Source: Candidatus Woesearchaeota archaeon (lineage in GTDB: Archaea > Nanobdellota > Nanobdellia > Woesearchaeales > SKGA01). Taken from it: a stretch of DNA of 43,356 nt. The notes beneath the pieces were generated by a model. The model was not told where the DNA came from and searched no databases. It worked only from the letters and a program-made list of their open reading frames with translations. Position 1 is the first letter of the stretch. Every line of letters starts with the position of its first letter. Location: positions 1-43,356 of the forward strand of contig JAFGOT010000017.1 of the NCBI GenBank assembly GCA_016926395.1, given 5' to 3'. The translations under genes and the position numbers were made by a program. Of the stretch, positions 18,362 to 31,812 are shown piece after piece.

Positions 18362-20575
18362 TTATCGTTTATATTCAATTCGACTATACTTGGCAGACAA
18401 ATCGACACTAAGGCCTCCATTTAGAGGTTTAATCTCTTTAATTAAGGTAGCCATAGTCATATAGACAGCTTTTCCCAAACCATTATCTAAAGGAGATTTA
18501 ATCCGAGAACGTTTTGAAGAATTATTAACAGAGTATTTAGAAGCATAAGAAACAAATGCATTAAATAAACCCAACAAATGGTTCTCAAATTGAGCTAAAG
18601 AAGTAGAATAAGAGTTTTTAGAATCATCAAACATAGACATCTGACTAATTCCTTTTTTAGCTAATTCTTGATTAGATATTTTTGTTTTTATAGATTTTTT
18701 AATTTTTTGAGGACTTTGCTGACCAACTAAAGAATTATACAAAACAGAAAATTGATCGTCAGGAGATAATTTGCTTGCTAGAAGAGCATTTGCTTTACTA
18801 AGAAGTTTTTTATCAACGCAGTATTGAAGTTCGTGTGGAAGACTAAGAAGAGCAAAAGCTTCACGCATTGTTTTTGGAGACTGAAGTGAACGATGAGTTT
18901 TAATAAAATCTTCTTGGCTATAATCCTCGCCTTGAATTTCTTTTTGGGATTTTATTAATTCATAATGAGAGTATAATTTTTTTGCACGCTCTAAAGGAGA
19001 ATCTTTTTCAGATAAATCCTCAATAGACTGAAGCAAACCAATATCGACTGCATCCAAATCATCTCGAATGTAAGCACTATAAGTTTTTAACTTGGCCATG
19101 TTGGCTGCTTTGAATCGACGATGACCATAGATAACTTCATAATCATAATTAGGATCATCATAAACTGGTTTTAATAGTCCTGGTTTTACTTGCCCAATTA
19201 AAGCCATCTCTTCTGCTAAATTTTCTAAAGATTCTGAATCATAAGTTGTTCTTACTTGACTGTCAGCCAAACGAATCCTATTTATTGGAACTTGAACTTC
19301 CTCGTCACCAATTGCTCTTAGAACTAAATCCCCATTTTGTTTACTGCCTTTCCGTTTAGACTTAATATAATCAAGATACGTTTTAGTGTCAGATTCATCT
19401 TCTTTAGTTAAGAAAGTATAAACAGCATTTTGTAATTTTTCAGGAGCATCACTTAAAGCAGACGAATACATGTCATAAAGTTGTTTTATAAAATCATTTT
19501 TAGATAAACCGCTGAATTTATTATCGGAAAAATCTTGAGTGAAATCACTTGAAATATCAAGAAGTTTTTTAAAGTTAGAAATATATTTTTTTATTTCATT
19601 TATTTTTTTAATAAAACGTGTGGAGTCATTAGATGTTGATTTTGTTTCTTTGAGTTGTTTCATATAAACAATAGAGTTACCAGATTCATCAGTATACCTA
19701 TCAGGATTGTTTTTTTCCTCAGCAAAGTTAATTAGATAAGAATTGAATTTGGTTCTTGACATTGGTTGCAATTGAGCAACATCATCAACACTAATATGAA
19801 AATCTTCTTTTTTGGATTTAATGTCAGAAAGGGCTTTTTTATTTTCTTCATCTTTTGCCAACTGTTTTTTTAGAAAATCAAAGAATTCAATTTGAGCATC
19901 AGGTTCAATAATTTTCTTAGATATTGCAACACCCTTTGAGAATAATCTTTGCTTAGGATGAGTTTTAATAAATTCTTTAATTAAATCAGGAAGTGCATTA
20001 AAAGTTCTATAATTGGAAACAGTATCAGGGGATCTTGATAATATTTGACCTATCGCTTTATTTGTTAAAGGAATTGGAGAATCTAAATGAAGAACATTAT
20101 AATTTCTAATATACCCTTCAAGTTCATTTGTCCAGGCTGCTAAATCAGGAGCAGAAATTTCTTCTTTTAATGCATTTAAGGAAACAACCAAACGCTCTTT
20201 AACTGCTAAAGGAAGATTATAAAATATTTTCACAGGAACATAATCCACGCCAAGAATATATGAAGCCCCAGTTCTTCTTCGACCATCAATCATCTCCCAT
20301 TTATCATTATCAGAATCATAATGTAAAGTTATTGGTTCTAAAAGACCGTATTCTTCTAATGACTTTGCTAAATCCTGCAACCCAGAAAGAGATCTTTTTA
20401 CATAGTTGGTTAAATCAAATTCATCAACAATCTTAGATAATGGATATGCTGAAACAGTTCGAGAAAGATGTTTAGCACCAGAAATGTTTTCGGGAAGAGA
20501 AGTGACTTCATTCATTATTGCTTCTAGGTCCCTCTTTTTTGTATGCACGCCCCCGTCTGCAATGTTTGTCTCCAT
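18362..20575 (-). CDS. Protein with two ParB/Sulfiredoxin-like domains
   Basis: IDGRRRTGASYILGVDYVPVKIF (domain 1) and VIYGHRRFKAANMAKLKTYSAYIRDD...SIEDLSEKDSPLERAK (domain 2). Confidence 0.8.
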   Translation of the reverse strand: METNIADGGVHTKKRDLEAIMNEVTSLPENISGAKHLSRTVSAYPLSKIVDEFDLTNYVKRSLSGLQDLAKSLEEYGLLEPITLHYDSDNDKWEMIDGRRRTGASYILGVDYVPVKIFYNLPLAVKERLVVSLNALKEEISAPDLAAWTNELEGYIRNYNVLHLDSPIPLTNKAIGQILSRSPDTVSNYRTFNALPDLIKEFIKTHPKQRLFSKGVAISKKIIEPDAQIEFFDFLKKQLAKDEENKKALSDIKSKKEDFHISVDDVAQLQPMSRTKFNSYLINFAEEKNNPDRYTDESGNSIVYMKQLKETKSTSNDSTRFIKKINEIKKYISNFKKLLDISSDFTQDFSDNKFSGLSKNDFIKQLYDMYSSALSDAPEKLQNAVYTFLTKEDESDTKTYLDYIKSKRKGSKQNGDLVLRAIGDEEVQVPINRIRLADSQVRTTYDSESLENLAEEMALIGQVKPGLLKPVYDDPNYDYEVIYGHRRFKAANMAKLKTYSAYIRDDLDAVDIGLLQSIEDLSEKDSPLERAKKLYSHYELIKSQKEIQGEDYSQEDFIKTHRSLQSPKTMREAFALLSLPHELQYCVDKKLLSKANALLASKLSPDDQFSVLYNSLVGQQSPQKIKKSIKTKISNQELAKKGISQMSMFDDSKNSYSTSLAQFENHLLGLFNAFVSYASKYSVNNSSKRSRIKSPLDNGLGKAVYMTMATLIKEIKPLNGGLSVDLSAKYSRIEYKR

Positions 20576-23449: not shown

Positions 23450-24907
23450 ATGGAGTACAAAGAATTAATTAAAAAATTGTCAAGTAGCGAAGGTGAAGAA
23501 GCTTCAAAGATAATGAAAGAACTAGGGCAATTTCTAACAAAATGCACTCCAGGACAAAGAACAACATTTTCTGCTGAATGCATAAGTGCAATTCCTAAAG
23601 CAAATGAAAAAAGAAAAGGTTCACTAGGATTCTTAATAGCATTAGCGAACATAAATAGAGAATTGATAACAGACTTACTACGCTCTGAGTCACCAATAAT
23701 TAGAGAACAAACAATTAAAGGTTTACTTCACCAAGGAGAAGAATACATTTTAGAATTAGAAACTAGGCTGAAAGAAGAGAAACTATATCGAATAAAAAAA
23801 TGGATTTTATTAACTCTTGGAAATGTTGGGACAAAAAAAGCAATTAAAATAATTGAAGAAGCCAAAATAGAGCCTCAAATATTCTCTACAAAAGAAAAAA
23901 TATTATCACAATTCAAACAAGAAAAAAAACACAATCAAAAAATTACAGGAAAAGGAGGGCTAATGTTAGTTCAGACAGTGATGGGCGCAGAAGAAAGTTT
24001 TTTAGAACATTATGATTTAAGAGGAGTAAGATTTGGAGGGGGAATTATTCAATTAGATGGAGAATTTGAATTTGATGATTTTGCAAAAAATAGAAGCATA
24101 TTTCACTACGGAGTATTTCTTGGAAGATTAAACGAAATAGAAAATGTAGTCAAAAAAAGATTTGGAGAAAAAGAACAATATTGTGTTGAATACACAAATG
24201 AAATCCATGGTGAAAAAGAAAGACTTAGTGAATTTCAAGCAGAACTATCAAAACAAGGCTTCGAATATAATTCTAAAGCACCACTAATATTAAGACTGTT
24301 GAATGAAGATGAAGGAATGCTTCTAATTAAACCACTAATCAAAGAAAATTTAGAATATTTACCTGCAAGCATAAATCGTGTTGTTGCAAGTGTTGTTAAT
24401 TTAGTCTCTGAGAATGAACACGGCAAAGCAAACATAATTCTAGACCCTTGTTGTGGAAGCGCCACATTATTATGTGAGCACCACGCAATGAGCGAACAGA
24501 GAACAGCGACAAAAAATAAATCTAGAGACGAACATGTAAAAAAGTATGTTGGAATAGATAAAGATAAAGAAGCAATAGAAAAAGCTAAGAAAAATTCAGA
24601 AGAATATAAATTAAAAATTGAACTTCACAATAAGAAATTTCAAGAAGTTTTACCAACACGAGCAGCAGATTTAGTTTTTTGTAACCCTCCATTTGACATT
24701 AGAATTAAAGAATACTTTGATTATAATGAACTAGTTAAATTTATTTCTAGAAACACAACAAAAAACATGACAGCAATTATTTATACAGTTAAAAAACAAG
24801 ATTTAAGAGACGCTTGCGAAAACAATAATTTAGAAATAATCAAAGAGATAAAATTAAAACTTAAAAAAATAAGTCCAAGTATTTTTATTATTAAAAAATT
24901 AAATTAG
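23450..24907 (+). CDS. HEAT-like repeat + Trm14/RlmL-type amino-methyltransferase fusion
   Basis: N-terminal helical/HEAT-like repeats; ILDPCCGSATLLCE, VGIDKDKEAI, LVFCNPPFD. Confidence 0.7.
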   Translation: MEYKELIKKLSSSEGEEASKIMKELGQFLTKCTPGQRTTFSAECISAIPKANEKRKGSLGFLIALANINRELITDLLRSESPIIREQTIKGLLHQGEEYILELETRLKEEKLYRIKKWILLTLGNVGTKKAIKIIEEAKIEPQIFSTKEKILSQFKQEKKHNQKITGKGGLMLVQTVMGAEESFLEHYDLRGVRFGGGIIQLDGEFEFDDFAKNRSIFHYGVFLGRLNEIENVVKKRFGEKEQYCVEYTNEIHGEKERLSEFQAELSKQGFEYNSKAPLILRLLNEDEGMLLIKPLIKENLEYLPASINRVVASVVNLVSENEHGKANIILDPCCGSATLLCEHHAMSEQRTATKNKSRDEHVKKYVGIDKDKEAIEKAKKNSEEYKLKIELHNKKFQEVLPTRAADLVFCNPPFDIRIKEYFDYNELVKFISRNTTKNMTAIIYTVKKQDLRDACENNNLEIIKEIKLKLKKISPSIFIIKKLN

Positions 24908-25814
24908 CAGAAACACCAAGTGAATCTCCTGCTTTAATGGATGTTTCTAAACCAAGTTTAGTATTGTTAATTAAATCAATATCGAAAATAACTTTATTTT
25001 TTTCGAAAAATAATAAAATGGTAGATCCACCAAATTGGAAGTAACCTTTTTCTTCACCTTTACTAAATCGTCTTCCAAAAAATGTTTGAACAATAGAACC
25101 AACCATCGTTGCCCCAACTTCACAATAAGCAACATCCCCAAACACATCAGAATGAAGAATAGAATATGAACGCTTATTCTCACAAAATATTCTGGCACGC
25201 TTCCTTAACGCGATTGGAGAAACAGAATAATAAGACCCAGAAATATGATGGGAAGAAATTAAATTTCCTGAAAACGGAAAATGAAAACGATGATAATTAC
25301 TTGGCGCTAGACAAATAATACAAAAAGAACCACTCAAAAATCGTTCAGCCAATTTTTTATTTTTAAAAAAACTAGCCAAAGAAAATCTTTGACCTTTAAC
25401 ATAAAAAGAATTAAAATTGTAAGTTTTATCAAAAGCCAAAATTTTACCATCACAAGGAGAAACAAGTAAGTTCTCAGAAGAGGAAAAATCACGAGCATCT
25501 TGATTTAGCTTTCTAGTAAAAAAATCATTAAAAGAATTAAACAACTTATATGATAAAAAAGAATCAGACATATCAACATCATATGAATCAATAAAAGGTT
25601 TAATCTTTTTTCTTGAAGAGTATTTATCCATTAAATTTCCATAGAAAGAAGAAAGAAACTTTCTTTTAACTAAAACAAACAAACTTAGTCGTCCAAAGGG
25701 TTTATAGTAAAGCCATTTCAAATAACTAAAAGAAGGAGAATATTCCTCTTCTAGAAGACCAGATTGCCTATTAATGTAAGAAATAAAATTCTTTTTTGAA
25801 CTAACCTTGACCAC
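24891..25814 (-). CDS. psd: Phosphatidylserine decarboxylase-like protein
   Basis: SPCDGKIL, YHRFHFPFSG, GATMVGSI, FQFGGSTILLFF (GGST in place of the canonical LGST processing site). Confidence 0.85.
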   Translation of the reverse strand: MVKVSSKKNFISYINRQSGLLEEEYSPSFSYLKWLYYKPFGRLSLFVLVKRKFLSSFYGNLMDKYSSRKKIKPFIDSYDVDMSDSFLSYKLFNSFNDFFTRKLNQDARDFSSSENLLVSPCDGKILAFDKTYNFNSFYVKGQRFSLASFFKNKKLAERFLSGSFCIICLAPSNYHRFHFPFSGNLISSHHISGSYYSVSPIALRKRARIFCENKRSYSILHSDVFGDVAYCEVGATMVGSIVQTFFGRRFSKGEEKGYFQFGGSTILLFFEKNKVIFDIDLINNTKLGLETSIKAGDSLGVSANLIF

Positions 25815-25879
25815 AAATACAACGGAAGAGAAGATTGTTTAAAATAGTTTGTGTAAAAAGAAAAATTATTTTTTAGCAA

Positions 25880-26617
25880 CTAATGTCTGGAATTCTCAAA
25901 ACGCTCAAAAGCAGAAAAAAGTTCTTTTCTAGTCGGCTTAATCAAAGATATTTTTTCAAAACGAAGACGTTTAGCATTTTTTAGAATAGAATAATCGTTT
26001 AACTCAACTGGACGTCGATACTCTCTTGTTTTATAACGATCTAGATTAATATTTTGTGATTTGTAGACCATACTAAGAATTTTTCTTTTTAATGCTTTTT
26101 CTTCAGCAGTAGGTTTTACAACTTTGAAATCAGCAACAGAAGGAATTTCATATTTTCTTTTACGAACAAGATTATTGGAATATTCGATTAACTCAGCACC
26201 AACAGCTTTAGCAACAAACCACGCACAAAAACGAACAACATCATGATCAGGATGATTACCCTCATAACAAAGAGTGTGAATTGTTTTTATCTTGTGTTCA
26301 TGAGCATACATTATCAAAGAATCAACGATAAAAGGAATGTGATTTTGTGTTTCTTGATCATTAACACCTAAAAACTTTATATCAGATTCATCAACTCCCA
26401 GAACAATTCCTGAAATTTTTGTTTCTGCTTCTCGAATCTTCATATAATGTTCTCTTGAAACATAACCCTTGTTTAAAAAGAACTCCTCACCATAACGAGG
26501 ACCGCCATTTGTAATAACAACTAAATGTGAATCAGATGCATTTCGCATAACACTAATCCCCATACTAATTATTTCATCATCCATATGAGGTACTAAGTAA
26601 AGGTGTTTATTCGCCAT
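25880..26617 (-). CDS. PIG-L/LmbE-family N-acetyl-sugar deacetylase
   Basis: LVPHMDDEIISMG and NHPDHDVVRF. Confidence 0.82.
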   Translation of the reverse strand: MANKHLYLVPHMDDEIISMGISVMRNASDSHLVVITNGGPRYGEEFFLNKGYVSREHYMKIREAETKISGIVLGVDESDIKFLGVNDQETQNHIPFIVDSLIMYAHEHKIKTIHTLCYEGNHPDHDVVRFCAWFVAKAVGAELIEYSNNLVRKRKYEIPSVADFKVVKPTAEEKALKRKILSMVYKSQNINLDRYKTREYRRPVELNDYSILKNAKRLRFEKISLIKPTRKELFSAFERFENSRH

Positions 26618-27782
26618 CTAAATTCAACTCTTTTTTAAAACGCTTGAAAAAAGGATGATTAATATCTTTAAACTGTGAATTAAAAACATTTCGGTCTCGA
26701 GAATCAAAATAAGCGAATGCACATATATTTTTGTATGAATTAAACAATTCCGCTTCTGAAACAGTTCCTTCAACAACATGCTTCCAATCTCTTCCTTCAT
26801 CTACCCATTGAACACCATATTTAGCCTTAGGTAACATAGATAATTGACCATTTTTACTTTGGTGAAATAATAAAGGAACATTGGAACCCGCAGCTCTAGA
26901 AACATCAACATTTCCACTAATTCTATAATTAGCTTCAATAAAATAATAATCGCCGTTGATTGAACTTCTTTTGAAATCTATATCAACCGGACCATTCAAA
27001 CTTAGTTCTTTTAAAAATGCATTTGAGAGACGTTCAAGTTCAGGGTTATAAACAGTCTCTAAAAAAGTTCCACTTCCAACCAACATATCAGGATGTTGTC
27101 TTATTTTCTGAATAACTACAGGCGTATAAGGAGTTCCATCTGAAAGAACAAAACCTTGAGTCTCGAATAAATCAGTGACTAAACCAGGAACATACTCAGC
27201 AATAAGAAGATGAGAACAATACTTTATTTTTTCATTAATCAATTTTTTTAATTCATCTTTATTATCTGCAATACCCATCATATCTTTATAGCCTTCAAGG
27301 CTATTCTCAGGTTTTACAAAAGCAGGAAAAACAGCATTTTCAATTATCTTATCTGTAGAATCTCCTTTGACTAAAATAGCATTTTGAGGAACTTTAAGAC
27401 CTGCTTTCTCTGCAACAAGACCCATCTCTTTTTTAGACATTATCTTTTCTAAATCATACTTATCAGAATCAGGAACATGATAGTAGGGTTTCAATTCATT
27501 TCCAAACTTAGCGATGAATTCAACCATAGGATCTGAAGCAACAAAAATAGTAGCAGGAGATTCAAGATGTTTAGCATTCTCTAAAAGAAATTCCAAAGTC
27601 ATTTCATAAGAATCATTAATTGAAATTATAGAATTATTAACAAAAGAAGAATTTTGCGCTATTGGAGAATACTTAGTAGTATGAATTCCTAAAATATCAA
27701 TATCATTTCCACTCAGACATTTTGCTGTAGCATACCCTGTTGAACTCAAATCTAAAATTACTGCAGATCCTTCTTTTTTCAT
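26607..27782 (-). CDS. ATP-grasp carboxylate-amine ligase
   Basis: FPAFVKPENSLEGYKDMMGI, LIAEYVPG, YYFIEANYRISGNVDVSRAAGSNVPLLF. Confidence 0.8.
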   Translation of the reverse strand: MKKEGSAVILDLSSTGYATAKCLSGNDIDILGIHTTKYSPIAQNSSFVNNSIISINDSYEMTLEFLLENAKHLESPATIFVASDPMVEFIAKFGNELKPYYHVPDSDKYDLEKIMSKKEMGLVAEKAGLKVPQNAILVKGDSTDKIIENAVFPAFVKPENSLEGYKDMMGIADNKDELKKLINEKIKYCSHLLIAEYVPGLVTDLFETQGFVLSDGTPYTPVVIQKIRQHPDMLVGSGTFLETVYNPELERLSNAFLKELSLNGPVDIDFKRSSINGDYYFIEANYRISGNVDVSRAAGSNVPLLFHQSKNGQLSMLPKAKYGVQWVDEGRDWKHVVEGTVSEAELFNSYKNICAFAYFDSRDRNVFNSQFKDINHPFFKRFKKELNLDGE

Positions 27783-27784
27783 AA

Positions 27785-29101
27785 TTACACCTTTTTAATA
27801 TAAGATTTAACCATATTTGTTAAATTAATTTCTTGAATTGATCTATTAATCTCATTTTCCGCAATTGACAAAATATTACAAATTGGCTCTTCTGCGGGAA
27901 TAATAGTTCCTTTTTCATGAACTCCAAAAATACCACCCTCCAAATCATTGAAAGAATCTTTTTTAGATTTTACAGGAAAATCACCAACTATTTTAACAGC
28001 ATGAGGAAGTTTATACACTTGCTTTTTCCAAACAAAATCATCAGAATCAACCAAATAATTAGTATCTATTTGATTTCCTAAAAGAGCTTGTGCTTCAACA
28101 TCCATGAATTTTTTTCTTTCAGGATTTAACTTATCCATATGAAGAGCAACTTCTAAACTAGTTCCACCAGAACGAGGATTAATTTCAATAAAATAAATTG
28201 AATTATTTTTTAAGAAATCAGTTCCCCACATACCCAAATAAGGCAATTTGTTATTTTTCAACTCACCACCAATAATATCTAAATACGTCTTGAAATCTTC
28301 TGAAAAACTTTGTTTCTGATTATTATAACCAGTTCCGCACCAAGAAGTTTGGTTTCTTAAAACCATCTCTGAAATAGGACCGCTAAGAACATTCCCAAAA
28401 ATATCAACTATACTGTATGTTGAAAGTGAACTAGCATCATCCAACCAAGTTTCAACAATGTAAGGAACATCCCCTTTTTCTTTAATCCAATTTTTTAGTT
28501 GGTTTTGATTTTGGATTCGTTTAATTCCTGTACCACCACCGCCTAACTCAACAGCAACGGCAACACCTGCTCCTTTATCAAGTCGTTTTACAACATCAGA
28601 TAATTCATCTTTAGAAGTGATGACAGGATTATTAAGAGGAACTTTTCCATTCAATAATTTTTTATTTTCTAATTTATTATCAAAATAGTTAACAGATTCA
28701 AAACTTGGAGCTAAAGTTATAATTCTAGGATTTTCAAATTGCATTCCTTGATTCATAGTTAAAGGTTTCATATACACAACAGAATCATTTAGTAAAACAG
28801 TATCAATAATTTTTTTCAGACCCTCATCTTCAGAAGCTAATTTACTAATTAAGTAAGGTTGTTCAAAATTATTTTGAACAATAAATCTTTTTGATATATC
28901 TTTTTTTAAATCAGGATTTATTACAATAGTATTTGGAGGTAAACTTTTTTGAAAAAAAGAAGTTATTACACCAATTTCAAAATCTGAATAAAGCTCATTA
29001 AAATTCTCAACAGAATAAGGAGATGCTGCAATCACAAACATTTTTGGTTTGTTGGTTTTAAAATTAACACTATTATATACAATATTATTCAAATTGATCA
29101 C
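27785..29101 (-). CDS. ATP-grasp ligase (second, distinct)
   Basis: VAVELGGGGTGIKRI, YIVETWLDD, YFIEINPRSGGTSLEVAL. Confidence 0.8.
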   Translation of the reverse strand: MINLNNIVYNSVNFKTNKPKMFVIAASPYSVENFNELYSDFEIGVITSFFQKSLPPNTIVINPDLKKDISKRFIVQNNFEQPYLISKLASEDEGLKKIIDTVLLNDSVVYMKPLTMNQGMQFENPRIITLAPSFESVNYFDNKLENKKLLNGKVPLNNPVITSKDELSDVVKRLDKGAGVAVAVELGGGGTGIKRIQNQNQLKNWIKEKGDVPYIVETWLDDASSLSTYSIVDIFGNVLSGPISEMVLRNQTSWCGTGYNNQKQSFSEDFKTYLDIIGGELKNNKLPYLGMWGTDFLKNNSIYFIEINPRSGGTSLEVALHMDKLNPERKKFMDVEAQALLGNQIDTNYLVDSDDFVWKKQVYKLPHAVKIVGDFPVKSKKDSFNDLEGGIFGVHEKGTIIPAEEPICNILSIAENEINRSIQEINLTNMVKSYIKKV

Positions 29102-29855
29102 CTATAAAATTCATAAAATTAATTCGAACATCTTCTGGTTTAGACTCTCTAATCCAAGGACTAAGATAAGGAACTTTTTGCAAAAGCACATCTAAAATAA
29201 AATCTCGTTGACCAAATTCTTCAACAGACAATAAGTGATTTTTTAGAATACCTTCTTGTGAGGAATATATTTTTAGCAAATCTTTTTTTTTAGATAATTC
29301 ATCTTCATTTAAAGTCCTTTTGTAAAAACTCAAATAAGTAGAAGTGGGTGGAAATTCAGTTATACAAACACCTTCATCAAATTTATAATTTGGAAACTCC
29401 CAAACAGGAATACTATTATTTTTAGCAACCATGTGACTTGCAAACCAAGCAACTTCATGATCAGGGTGTGTTTGAGGAAAACCATGAGTTACAATTTGTT
29501 CTATTTTCCAATCAACTACAAAAGAGTCTAACTTTTCTATTACCTTAGAAACATTATTAATTAAGTCTTGATCGCTAAATTTAAAATTAAAAAAATTAGC
29601 GACACCTAAAGATTCAAAAGCTTTAGAATCTTCTTCCAATCTCTTTTTTGCATATTCTTTTGGATTTTTGTAGGAAACACCATCGTCACCCACCACAGGA
29701 TAATCTATTTCAAATAAAGGAGCACCATCAGTTAAAGTAAGAACATAAGAATTTTCAGGACAATCCAAAATAGTTATACCTGCAAAAATAGGAATATCAT
29801 CAGGATGAGCACCTACAAATAAAGTTTTTTTATTAAGTGAAAATAATTTGTTCAT
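29085..29855 (-). CDS. PIG-L/LmbE-family deacetylase (second)
   Basis: LFVGAHPDDIPIFAG and THPDHEVAWFASH. Confidence 0.82.
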   Translation of the reverse strand: MNKLFSLNKKTLFVGAHPDDIPIFAGITILDCPENSYVLTLTDGAPLFEIDYPVVGDDGVSYKNPKEYAKKRLEEDSKAFESLGVANFFNFKFSDQDLINNVSKVIEKLDSFVVDWKIEQIVTHGFPQTHPDHEVAWFASHMVAKNNSIPVWEFPNYKFDEGVCITEFPPTSTYLSFYKRTLNEDELSKKKDLLKIYSSQEGILKNHLLSVEEFGQRDFILDVLLQKVPYLSPWIRESKPEDVRINFMNFIGDQFE

Positions 29856-29884
29856 TTAAACCCCCTTTAAAAAAATAAAAAAAA

Positions 29885-31150
29885 CTAAAAAGAAATTGAT
29901 GACTCAACAGAAGGCTTAACAAAAGATTCATTTTCTTTGAAAGAATCAAGCAAAATATTAACTCGTTCTACAGTAAAGTCATTGGCCATAGAGTGGATTA
30001 AAAACTTGTTCTCGGAATAATATGAATTAGCGTTCAGTTCTGGTAAGATAAGAGTTTTGTTTAATATTGACGTATCAACTAACCTCTCCTCTATTAAATC
30101 ACCATATAATCTAACTTGCTCAACGTCATCAACATGAACACTGTTTAGTGAAGCAACTTTTGTAAAGTTAAGTTTGAAAATTCTAGGATTTTTTACTATT
30201 TGAGAGAATGTTTCAGGAAAATCTTCTTTTAGCGCTCTAAAGTAAGCACCAATTATATTTTTTCCAATCATTTTTTTACCTTCTAATTCAGTAGAAGTTT
30301 GATCGACAATTCCAAGGTTTACATCAATTGCTAATGCGGCTTCATCCAATAAGTTGCTTATTTGCATAAGTGAATAAACTTCAATACCATACCTTGTTGG
30401 AATTCGCATATTTTTCCAAATGTCAGCAGAAGCACCATAACCACCAGAAATAGGCCCTTCAAATTCATTCACCCCAGGATGAGTGCCAATATCATTAAGA
30501 AGCTGCATAAGTGGTCTTGCTAAATTTCGACTCACACAACTATTTAATAAAGTATCACAAGTAGGAATAACTCTACCTTCTTCATTGCAAAAATCAATAA
30601 CCGTTTGCCATTCATCTTCTAGTTCGAAAGTAGCCTTCACTAATTGAGCATCTTCTTTTTCAATAGGACCTATTAACCCATTCAAAAATCTTGGATGAAT
30701 ATTGAAAAAATCACTATCTAAAAATATAAAATGGTCGCCAGTAGCAACTGCCATTCCAACATACATTGTTCGACCTTTACCAGGTGCTTTTCCTGGTTCT
30801 ACGGTTTTTTTACCAAATAATTTTTCAAATCGAGGATCAAAAACACTAACAGCTTTAACAGGCAAAGGTAAACCTTTTTCTTTTGCTAATGCAATCATAG
30901 AAGCAAAAGGTTCTGTTTTGATTGCAGATGAAAGAAATTCATTAATAGTTCTACCATCGTCTGAACTATCAGCTAAAATAATTTCATGAATAAAACCAGC
31001 TTCCATCAATTCTGCAAATTCAGGAAGATATCTTCCAATTGTTTGATGCTCATTTCGTGCTGGAAGAATCACACTAATTTTTTTAGTGCCGGAGGGTGTT
31101 GTTTTTGCCAAATCGTCATATTCTCTGTGGTGTTTTCGTAGTATTTTCAT
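29885..31150 (-). CDS. Glucosyl-3-phosphoglycerate synthase-like glycosyltransferase (GT81)
   Basis: SVILPARNEHQTIGRYL, PGKGRTMYVGMAVATGDHFIFLDSDFFNIHPRFLNGLIGPI. Confidence 0.75.
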   Translation of the reverse strand: MKILRKHHREYDDLAKTTPSGTKKISVILPARNEHQTIGRYLPEFAELMEAGFIHEIILADSSDDGRTINEFLSSAIKTEPFASMIALAKEKGLPLPVKAVSVFDPRFEKLFGKKTVEPGKAPGKGRTMYVGMAVATGDHFIFLDSDFFNIHPRFLNGLIGPIEKEDAQLVKATFELEDEWQTVIDFCNEEGRVIPTCDTLLNSCVSRNLARPLMQLLNDIGTHPGVNEFEGPISGGYGASADIWKNMRIPTRYGIEVYSLMQISNLLDEAALAIDVNLGIVDQTSTELEGKKMIGKNIIGAYFRALKEDFPETFSQIVKNPRIFKLNFTKVASLNSVHVDDVEQVRLYGDLIEERLVDTSILNKTLILPELNANSYYSENKFLIHSMANDFTVERVNILLDSFKENESFVKPSVESSISF

Positions 31151-31354
31151 AAAAAATCACGTCTTTAAAAGCGGGAATGTTAATTCAAATATAAATATAA
31201 CGTTTTTTTAACAATTCACTTAGCATAAATATATGTAAAATGGCTAAATAACGCCAAAATAAACTTCTTTTCGCAAAAAAAGGTTAAAAAACCATGTAGA
31301 AAGGCCAAAAAAGAGAATTTCTATAAAAGAACAAACCCACACCAATATACAATA

Positions 31355-31389
31355 TAGTATACTAAAACACAATATTTATATACTAGTAT
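31355..31389. promoter_or_regulatory. Two palindromes (TAGTATACTA, ATACTAGTAT) flanking/overlapping a TATA-like box
   Basis: 31355-31364 and 31380-31389, centres 25 bp apart; TATTTATATAC between/overlapping. Confidence 0.45.
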
Positions 31390-31404
31390 GTCAATGTCAG
31401 ATGT

Positions 31405-31812
31405 ATGGTTATGTTGTTCAATCAATTTAACCTTCCCGAAGATGTGTATGAAATCATCTTCGCAACTACACAACAAGTGGAAGTTGCTCGACTCCTAATC
31501 GATGAGATGAAGGTCAAGGGAGGAGAGATTGGAAAAACAGAAATGAGTCTCTTTGCTACCGCTCTACATGACGGTATAACAACAGAAACTATGACCAACG
31601 GTCCTTTCCGGCAGAAAAAGAAGGTGAGTATATCATACAATAAACGGCAATTTTACGACCGTATATTGACCCCAATGAAAACAATGGGCTTAATCGATTA
31701 TGATTTGTACAAAAAAACGTACAAAATCAGCGAGAAGTTCAATAAGAACATGATGAGAATCGGTCTTATGTGGCTTCAAGAACTTCGAAAAAGTCCGCTT
31801 GAATTACGATAA
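31405..31812 (+). CDS. Small putative winged-helix-like protein, possible regulator
   Basis: Basic, helical; KVSISYNKRQFYDRILTPMKTMGLIDYDLYKKTYKISEKF resembles a wHTH; family not recognised. Confidence 0.45.
   Translation: MVMLFNQFNLPEDVYEIIFATTQQVEVARLLIDEMKVKGGEIGKTEMSLFATALHDGITTETMTNGPFRQKKKVSISYNKRQFYDRILTPMKTMGLIDYDLYKKTYKISEKFNKNMMRIGLMWLQELRKSPLELR

Follow-up and report, generated by a model that had tools for sequence, protein, structure and literature searches.

What does an archaeal operon make that combines a glycosyltransferase with two PIG-L-type deacetylases, two ATP-grasp ligases and a phosphatidylserine decarboxylase (Psd)? Such an operon lies on contig JAFGOT010000017.1 (C22 in our numbering) of a Candidatus Woesearchaeota genome of 1.02 Mb that is 82.5% complete and whose relatives are DPANN archaea; the stretch of 43,356 nucleotides that was analyzed is referred to here as the window. 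A first-pass annotation, made from the sequence alone, had proposed that the six genes build an amino-acylated aminosugar, perhaps a thiol, by the logic of mycothiol and bacillithiol synthesis. We report that four of the genes form a cassette that is real, rare and conserved, and that this cassette may make a small molecule of the bacillithiol type. Evidence for and against seems to us evenly balanced as to whether GT81, PIG-L1, ATP-grasp2 and PIG-L2 constitute a bacillithiol/mycothiol-type pathway, with GT81 in the place of BshA and an ATP-grasp enzyme in that of BshC.

Results

The conserved core of the operon

Six open reading frames (ORFs) were confirmed on the minus strand where the first-pass annotation had placed them (Table 1), together with both overlaps that it described (29085/29101, 17 bp; 26607/26617, 11 bp); the remaining gaps in the run are 2, 29 and 65 bp. 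The order GT81–PIG-L1–ATP-grasp2–PIG-L2 was found again at locus L073 of genome G146, an archaeon of another family, with identities of 43%, 33%, 38% and 46%, respectively. Because this four-gene order recurs, the set is not a chance assembly. In a phylogenetic tree each PIG-L protein pairs with its positional counterpart in L073 (95/92 for PIG-L1 and 98/98 for PIG-L2). ATP-grasp1 and Psd are missing from the G146 cassette. The expected co-occurrence in related archaea is therefore seen with four genes of the run but not with these two, and the conserved core is a four-gene set rather than a mirrored six-gene scheme. The idea that the mirrored order reflects two rounds of deacetylation and ligation was not sustained, since the second ligase is confined to the window and an amidase explains the second PIG-L gene. 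Makers of mycothiol and of bacillithiol both possess a deacetylase and a PIG-L-family S-conjugate amidase (PMC4360819); because such a pair (MshB/Mca, BshB1/Bca) suffices, two PIG-L genes need no second ligation, and a deacetylase plus an S-conjugate amidase would account for them more simply.

Among 288 genomes of the order, GT81 orthologs (42–44% identical) occur only in G111, G146 and G245, and two peptide patterns, run against 84,980 species genomes, matched only the same three contigs. No relatives of GT81 or of ATP-grasp1 were found in viral and plasmid collections. ATP-grasp1 turned up in only six of the 288 genomes, its own included; the relatives in the others are distant and lack the operon, and ATP-grasp1 was therefore rejected as an operon probe. 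In two genomes these relatives adjoin an apparent prolyl-tRNA synthetase gene (L011:1741-3108 and L012:2979-4364).

ATP-grasp2 groups with ligases of BshA cassettes

Both ligases combine an ATP-grasp fold with the C-terminal E-x-N-x-R metal motif that had been noted earlier (EINPR in ATP-grasp1, EANYR in ATP-grasp2). ATP-grasp2 exceeds the PF15632 and PF02786 cut-offs, and the top folds for its AlphaFold2 model (predicted local distance difference test score, pLDDT, 80) are PurK, carbamoyl-phosphate synthase, biotin carboxylase and L-amino-acid ligase. ATP-grasp1 just exceeds the PF02222 cut-off (28.0 versus 27 bits), and its weak model (pLDDT 65) matches biotin-carboxylase, PurK and amino-acid-ligase folds.

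Distant relatives of ATP-grasp2 in G069, G164 and G182 sit in tight GT4–PIG-L–ATP-grasp cassettes, in which the ligase gene overlaps or abuts the PIG-L gene. Against the BshA model the GT4 genes reach 262–292 bits, and two of the three clear the cut-off of 273.7; the PIG-L proteins match BshB1 best, below its cut-off. BshC (TIGR03998) was not found in ten genomes, including that of the window and these three, and was detected in three control genomes. These DPANN cassettes (L075:7500-10572, L076:3713-6697 and L077:9471-12507) are candidates for an archaeal bacillithiol pathway that uses another ligase. In a likelihood tree the two ligases of the GT81 cassettes and those of G069, G164 and G182 form one clade (100/99), which leaves out the order's other ATP-grasp proteins and the bacterial plasmid relatives. 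ATP-grasp2 is thus a member of the same clade as the BshA-cassette ligases and, like them, lies next to a PIG-L gene. Ligase-profile searches of the class and phylum yielded no further cassette of either kind, the surroundings of the weaker matches having been read only in part.

Shared regulators and a shared chromosomal site

In G111 and G146, GT81 is transcribed divergently from a tandem of Lrp/AsnC-like regulators, and in G069, G164 and G145 BshA is likewise divergent from members of this regulator family (26–64% identical). The window genome has a single strong full-length homolog, on another contig. Contig C37 of this genome contains a giant ORF of 2510 aa whose N-terminus is Lrp-like (L216:8665-16197), and also the genome's third PIG-L gene, beside a GT4 gene; the tree showed the latter to be unrelated to the operon pair.

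Seven loci in the order matched BshA strongly: three with an ATP-grasp gene, two (G154 and G190) with two PIG-L genes and a protein X, and two without such neighbors. Protein X (372 and 450 aa; L131:9062-10180 and L132:5952-7304) lies inside the BshA–PIG-L operons, and its two versions are 29% identical to each other. Its resemblance to BshC was seen by eye and is left as a guess, as Pfam, NCBIfam and PDB gave no support. In genus g110, the BshA–X–PIG-L–PIG-L operon of G154 is flanked by genes for a C39-peptidase-like protein and a helicase, and the same site in G245 holds an oxidoreductase gene, GT81 and a divergent PIG-L gene, the flanking genes of the two genomes being 57–82% identical. This shared site is the best argument that the two gene sets, with GT81 and with BshA, have comparable functions. 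A YfcE-like phosphoesterase gene adjoins the GT81 locus in G111 and G146; we do not claim it as the missing phosphatase because it also occurs near BshA loci and, in the window genome, on another contig.

Glycosyltransferase and PIG-L proteins

The GT81 label given to the glycosyltransferase proved apt, as its nearest solved structures are GT81 glucosyl-3-phosphoglycerate synthases (GpgS; 1e-15 by sequence, 2e-21 by profile). Against the GpgS model NF010496 it scores 96.8 bits (1e-27), below the curated cut-off of 262. The donor-site motifs PGKG, DSD and YGxE are retained, as judged from the residues described in PMC2581804. The acceptor-carboxylate site of GpgS is formed by Val186 and Thr187 (PMC2581804); the window protein has V and S there, and the Thr187 position reads S, S, A and T across the four GT81 proteins, a hydroxyl residue in three of them. 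These residues fit a small hydroxy-acid acceptor and prove neither glycerate nor N-acetylglucosamine (GlcNAc). An N-acetylated sugar donor is argued for because PIG-L enzymes are present, and GT81 is predicted from its sequence to be an N-acetylhexosamine transferase to a small hydroxy acid.

Both PIG-L proteins exceed the PF02585 cut-off (4e-15 and 9e-15) and keep the expected HxDD and HPDH motifs (AHPDD...HPDH in PIG-L1, PHMDD...HPDH in PIG-L2). The BshB profiles TIGR04001 and TIGR04000 gave 33 and 16 bits with the window PIG-L proteins (cut-offs 182 and 195), and no match to TIGR03445 or TIGR03446 (MshB/Mca) was listed for the window proteins. BshA (TIGR03999) had no match at E<=1e-45 in the window genome. 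With a GT81-like glycosyltransferase in the operon and neither BshB nor BshC recognized, the cassette works like the bacillithiol and mycothiol pathways but is no member of them.

Alternative products of the operon

The main rival explanation is that amino-acylated glucosamine is added by the cassette to a glycan or glycolipid of the cell surface, so that the product is structural and not a free thiol. Priestia and Cytobacillus plasmids carry adjacent PIG-L, GT4, ATP-grasp and phosphotransferase/kinase-like genes, on Priestia plasmids amid spore-coat genes; the GT81 gene of G111 is paired with a kinase-like gene; the tree places the GT81-cassette PIG-L together with one that Skermanella encodes in a glycan-like cluster; and another ATP-grasp2 relative in the order (L078) stands among GT4/GT2 and flippase-like genes. 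However, the clade of GT81- and BshA-cassette ligases does not include the bacterial ones, the operon has no flippase, polymerase or membrane glycosyltransferase, characterized GT81 enzymes act on small acids, and the regulator family and chromosomal site are shared with BshA cassettes. We consider a surface decoration unlikely, if a serious contender.

The Psd gene raises a second alternative, a lipid head-group operon that would add an aminosugar and an amino acid to an archaetidyl lipid, Psd making the ethanolamine head. The protein is a phosphatidylserine decarboxylase by score (PF02666, 2.5e-57; above the TIGR00163 cut-off and just under that of PRK00723) and by its GGST self-cleavage site; its gene is the last of the run, 65 bp downstream, and PIG-L enzymes are known to act on GlcNAc-phosphatidylinositol. 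Nevertheless, Psd, which had been put forward as a possible part of the pathway, is absent from the G146 cassette and located elsewhere in both G146 and G111, in the latter beside a CDP-alcohol transferase gene. A CDP-alcohol phosphatidyltransferase was not found in the window genome, as far as its 82.5% completeness allows. Other Psd-family genes in the order are mostly shorter, the two that match the window Psd being ~25% identical. Psd probably acts elsewhere, on the head groups of lipids, or else modifies the product, and a lipid head-group operon is improbable. A compatible-solute pathway of the glucosyl- or mannosyl-glycerate type lying beside unrelated PIG-L and ligase genes is suggested by the glycosyltransferase's closest characterized kin, which make glucosyl-3-phosphoglycerate, but is very improbable given the tight, overlapping operon whose order is conserved with the PIG-L and ligase genes, the lack of a glucosyl-3-phosphoglycerate phosphatase gene in it and a score short of the NF010496 cut-off.

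Other features of the window

The upstream methyltransferase gene gave no synteny anchor in near relatives. A 737-aa protein encoded at 18362-20575 of the window has a sequence suggestive of two ParB-like halves.

Table 1. Coordinates of the operon genes and adjoining features in the window.
Feature	Position	Strand	Basis
GT81-like (GpgS/MgS-related) retaining glycosyltransferase, operon gene 1	29885..31150	-	GpgS structure matches, donor motifs
PIG-L1, predicted de-N-acetylase or conjugate amidase	29085..29855	-	PF02585, AHPDD/HPDH, L073 ortholog
ATP-grasp1, second carboxylate-amine ligase, window-specific addition	27785..29101	-	PF02222, EINPR
ATP-grasp2, predicted amino-acid ligase onto freed sugar amine	26607..27782	-	EANYR, AlphaFold2, tree
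PIG-L2, predicted de-N-acetylase or S-conjugate-amidase-like	25880..26617	-	PF02585, PHMDDE/HPDHD, L073 ortholog
Psd family, bacterial long type, downstream neighbor outside conserved cassette	24891..25814	-	PF02666, TIGR00163
A+T-rich divergent intergenic region, probable operon promoter (from position)	31151..31404		
Divergent 135-aa protein, no Pfam family	31405..31812	+	homologs beside BshA loci in G182, G138

Discussion

The gene families, their motifs, the conservation of the cassette, the ligase clade, the shared regulator family and the locus exchange are observations; the following route, with all its substrates, its sequence of steps and its thiol, is what we infer from them. GT81 would attach an N-acetylhexosamine to a small alpha-hydroxy acid such as glycerate, 3-phosphoglycerate or a similar compound; the sugar is probably GlcNAc, donated by UDP-GlcNAc. 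One PIG-L enzyme would remove the acetyl group, and ATP-grasp2 would activate an amino acid as its acyl phosphate and join it to the free amine; for a thiol product this amino acid would be cysteine. The other PIG-L enzyme would cleave S-conjugates in the manner of Mca and Bca or serve as a second deacetylase, and ATP-grasp1 may attach one more residue in the window genome. GlmS is present in the window genome, which speaks for this route, and bacillithiol itself uses malate, an alpha-hydroxy acid, according to PMC7278568. The sister ligases, the shared regulator family and the site exchange thus uphold the earlier logic of glycosyl transfer, PIG-L deacetylation and ATP-grasp ligation, from which Psd and the second ligase drop out.

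Several results weigh against a bacillithiol-type route. The E of the PLSGE loop is replaced by G in all four GT81 proteins (P[IL]SGG). The PIG-L proteins of the GT81 cassettes form a clade separate from the BshB subgroup and lack its C-terminal motif RGxQxG..YAEA. At the same site in G111, a congener of G146, GT81 is accompanied by a kinase-like gene that replaces the PIG-L–ligase–PIG-L block, and GT81 of G245 has no ligase nearby; because of these arrangements, GT81 may be used for other purposes. Among sequenced relatives, the three nearest (G001–G003) have no match to GT81, ATP-grasp1 or ATP-grasp2, E. coli CysK/CysM queries found no homologs in the window genome (82.5% complete), and sequence alone does not reveal which amino acid or sugar is used. 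The kinase-like gene of G111 (L072:11639-12607) was labeled by eye and has no Pfam match.

Taken together, an aminosugar conjugate is on balance the probable product, and a thiol is possible. We would extend this only tentatively, and with considerable doubt, to the proposal that DPANN archaea produce a low-molecular-weight thiol not yet described, cysteinyl-glucosaminyl-(phospho)glycerate, by convergent use of GT81, PIG-L and ATP-grasp enzymes, and that archaea have in parallel a bacillithiol pathway whose BshC has given way to ATP-grasp. A literature search found no paper pairing ATP-grasp, PIG-L and glycosyltransferase; of those that mention bacillithiol and ATP-grasp, the two most relevant (PMC7278568 and PMC2922099) do not describe such a pathway where these terms occur in them, and the literature found describes no DPANN thiol. 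BshC activity had not yet been demonstrated in vitro as of a 2015 review (PMC4360819). If the proposal is true, the first and last enzymes in the assembly of thiol-type aminosugar conjugates can be exchanged, the cysteine step has an ATP-dependent answer, and four recombinant proteins make it possible to test what a DPANN redox metabolite is.

Comparison with known systems

Like GpgS/MgS-type glycosyltransferases, the window GT81 has PGKG, DSD, YGxE and V plus a hydroxyl residue near the acceptor carboxylate; it differs in ~100 extra C-terminal residues, in an acceptor-loop G-G-R that is not kept, in the G for E of PLSGE and in its operon with PIG-L and ligase genes. The Priestia/Cytobacillus plasmid units also bring genes of these three enzyme classes together, with an ATP-grasp protein of ~25% identity, whereas their ligase lies outside the archaeal clade, their glycosyltransferase is GT4 and they have one PIG-L gene. 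These units, in which the ATP-grasp gene is labeled 'carbamoyl-phosphate synthase', were seen at L139:5040-9237, L140:5040-9237 and L138:5011-9245. With mycothiol synthesis (MshA, MshA2, MshB, MshC and MshD, plus Mca) the cassette shares the predicted order of the chemistry and the presence of two PIG-L proteins, in mycothiol makers a deacetylase and an S-conjugate amidase; the window operon has no MshA, MshC or MshD, and its ligase is an ATP-grasp enzyme and not a relative of cysteinyl-tRNA synthetase. Bacillithiol synthesis (BshA, BshB1/BshB2, BshC) likewise combines a glycosyltransferase, one or two PIG-L proteins and a ligase. The window differs in having GT81 instead of the GT4 enzyme BshA, ATP-grasp instead of BshC and PIG-L proteins outside the BshB subgroup, yet ATP-grasp2 has its sister ligases in DPANN BshA–BshB-like cassettes, and in one genus a BshA operon and a GT81 plus PIG-L set occupy a shared site. 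Finally, although protein X of the DPANN BshA operons (G154, G190) has no Pfam or NCBIfam match and is like BshC only by eye, these operons also contain a glycosyltransferase, two PIG-L proteins and a third enzyme at the expected place of the ligase, and that of G154 occupies the very site where G245 has GT81.

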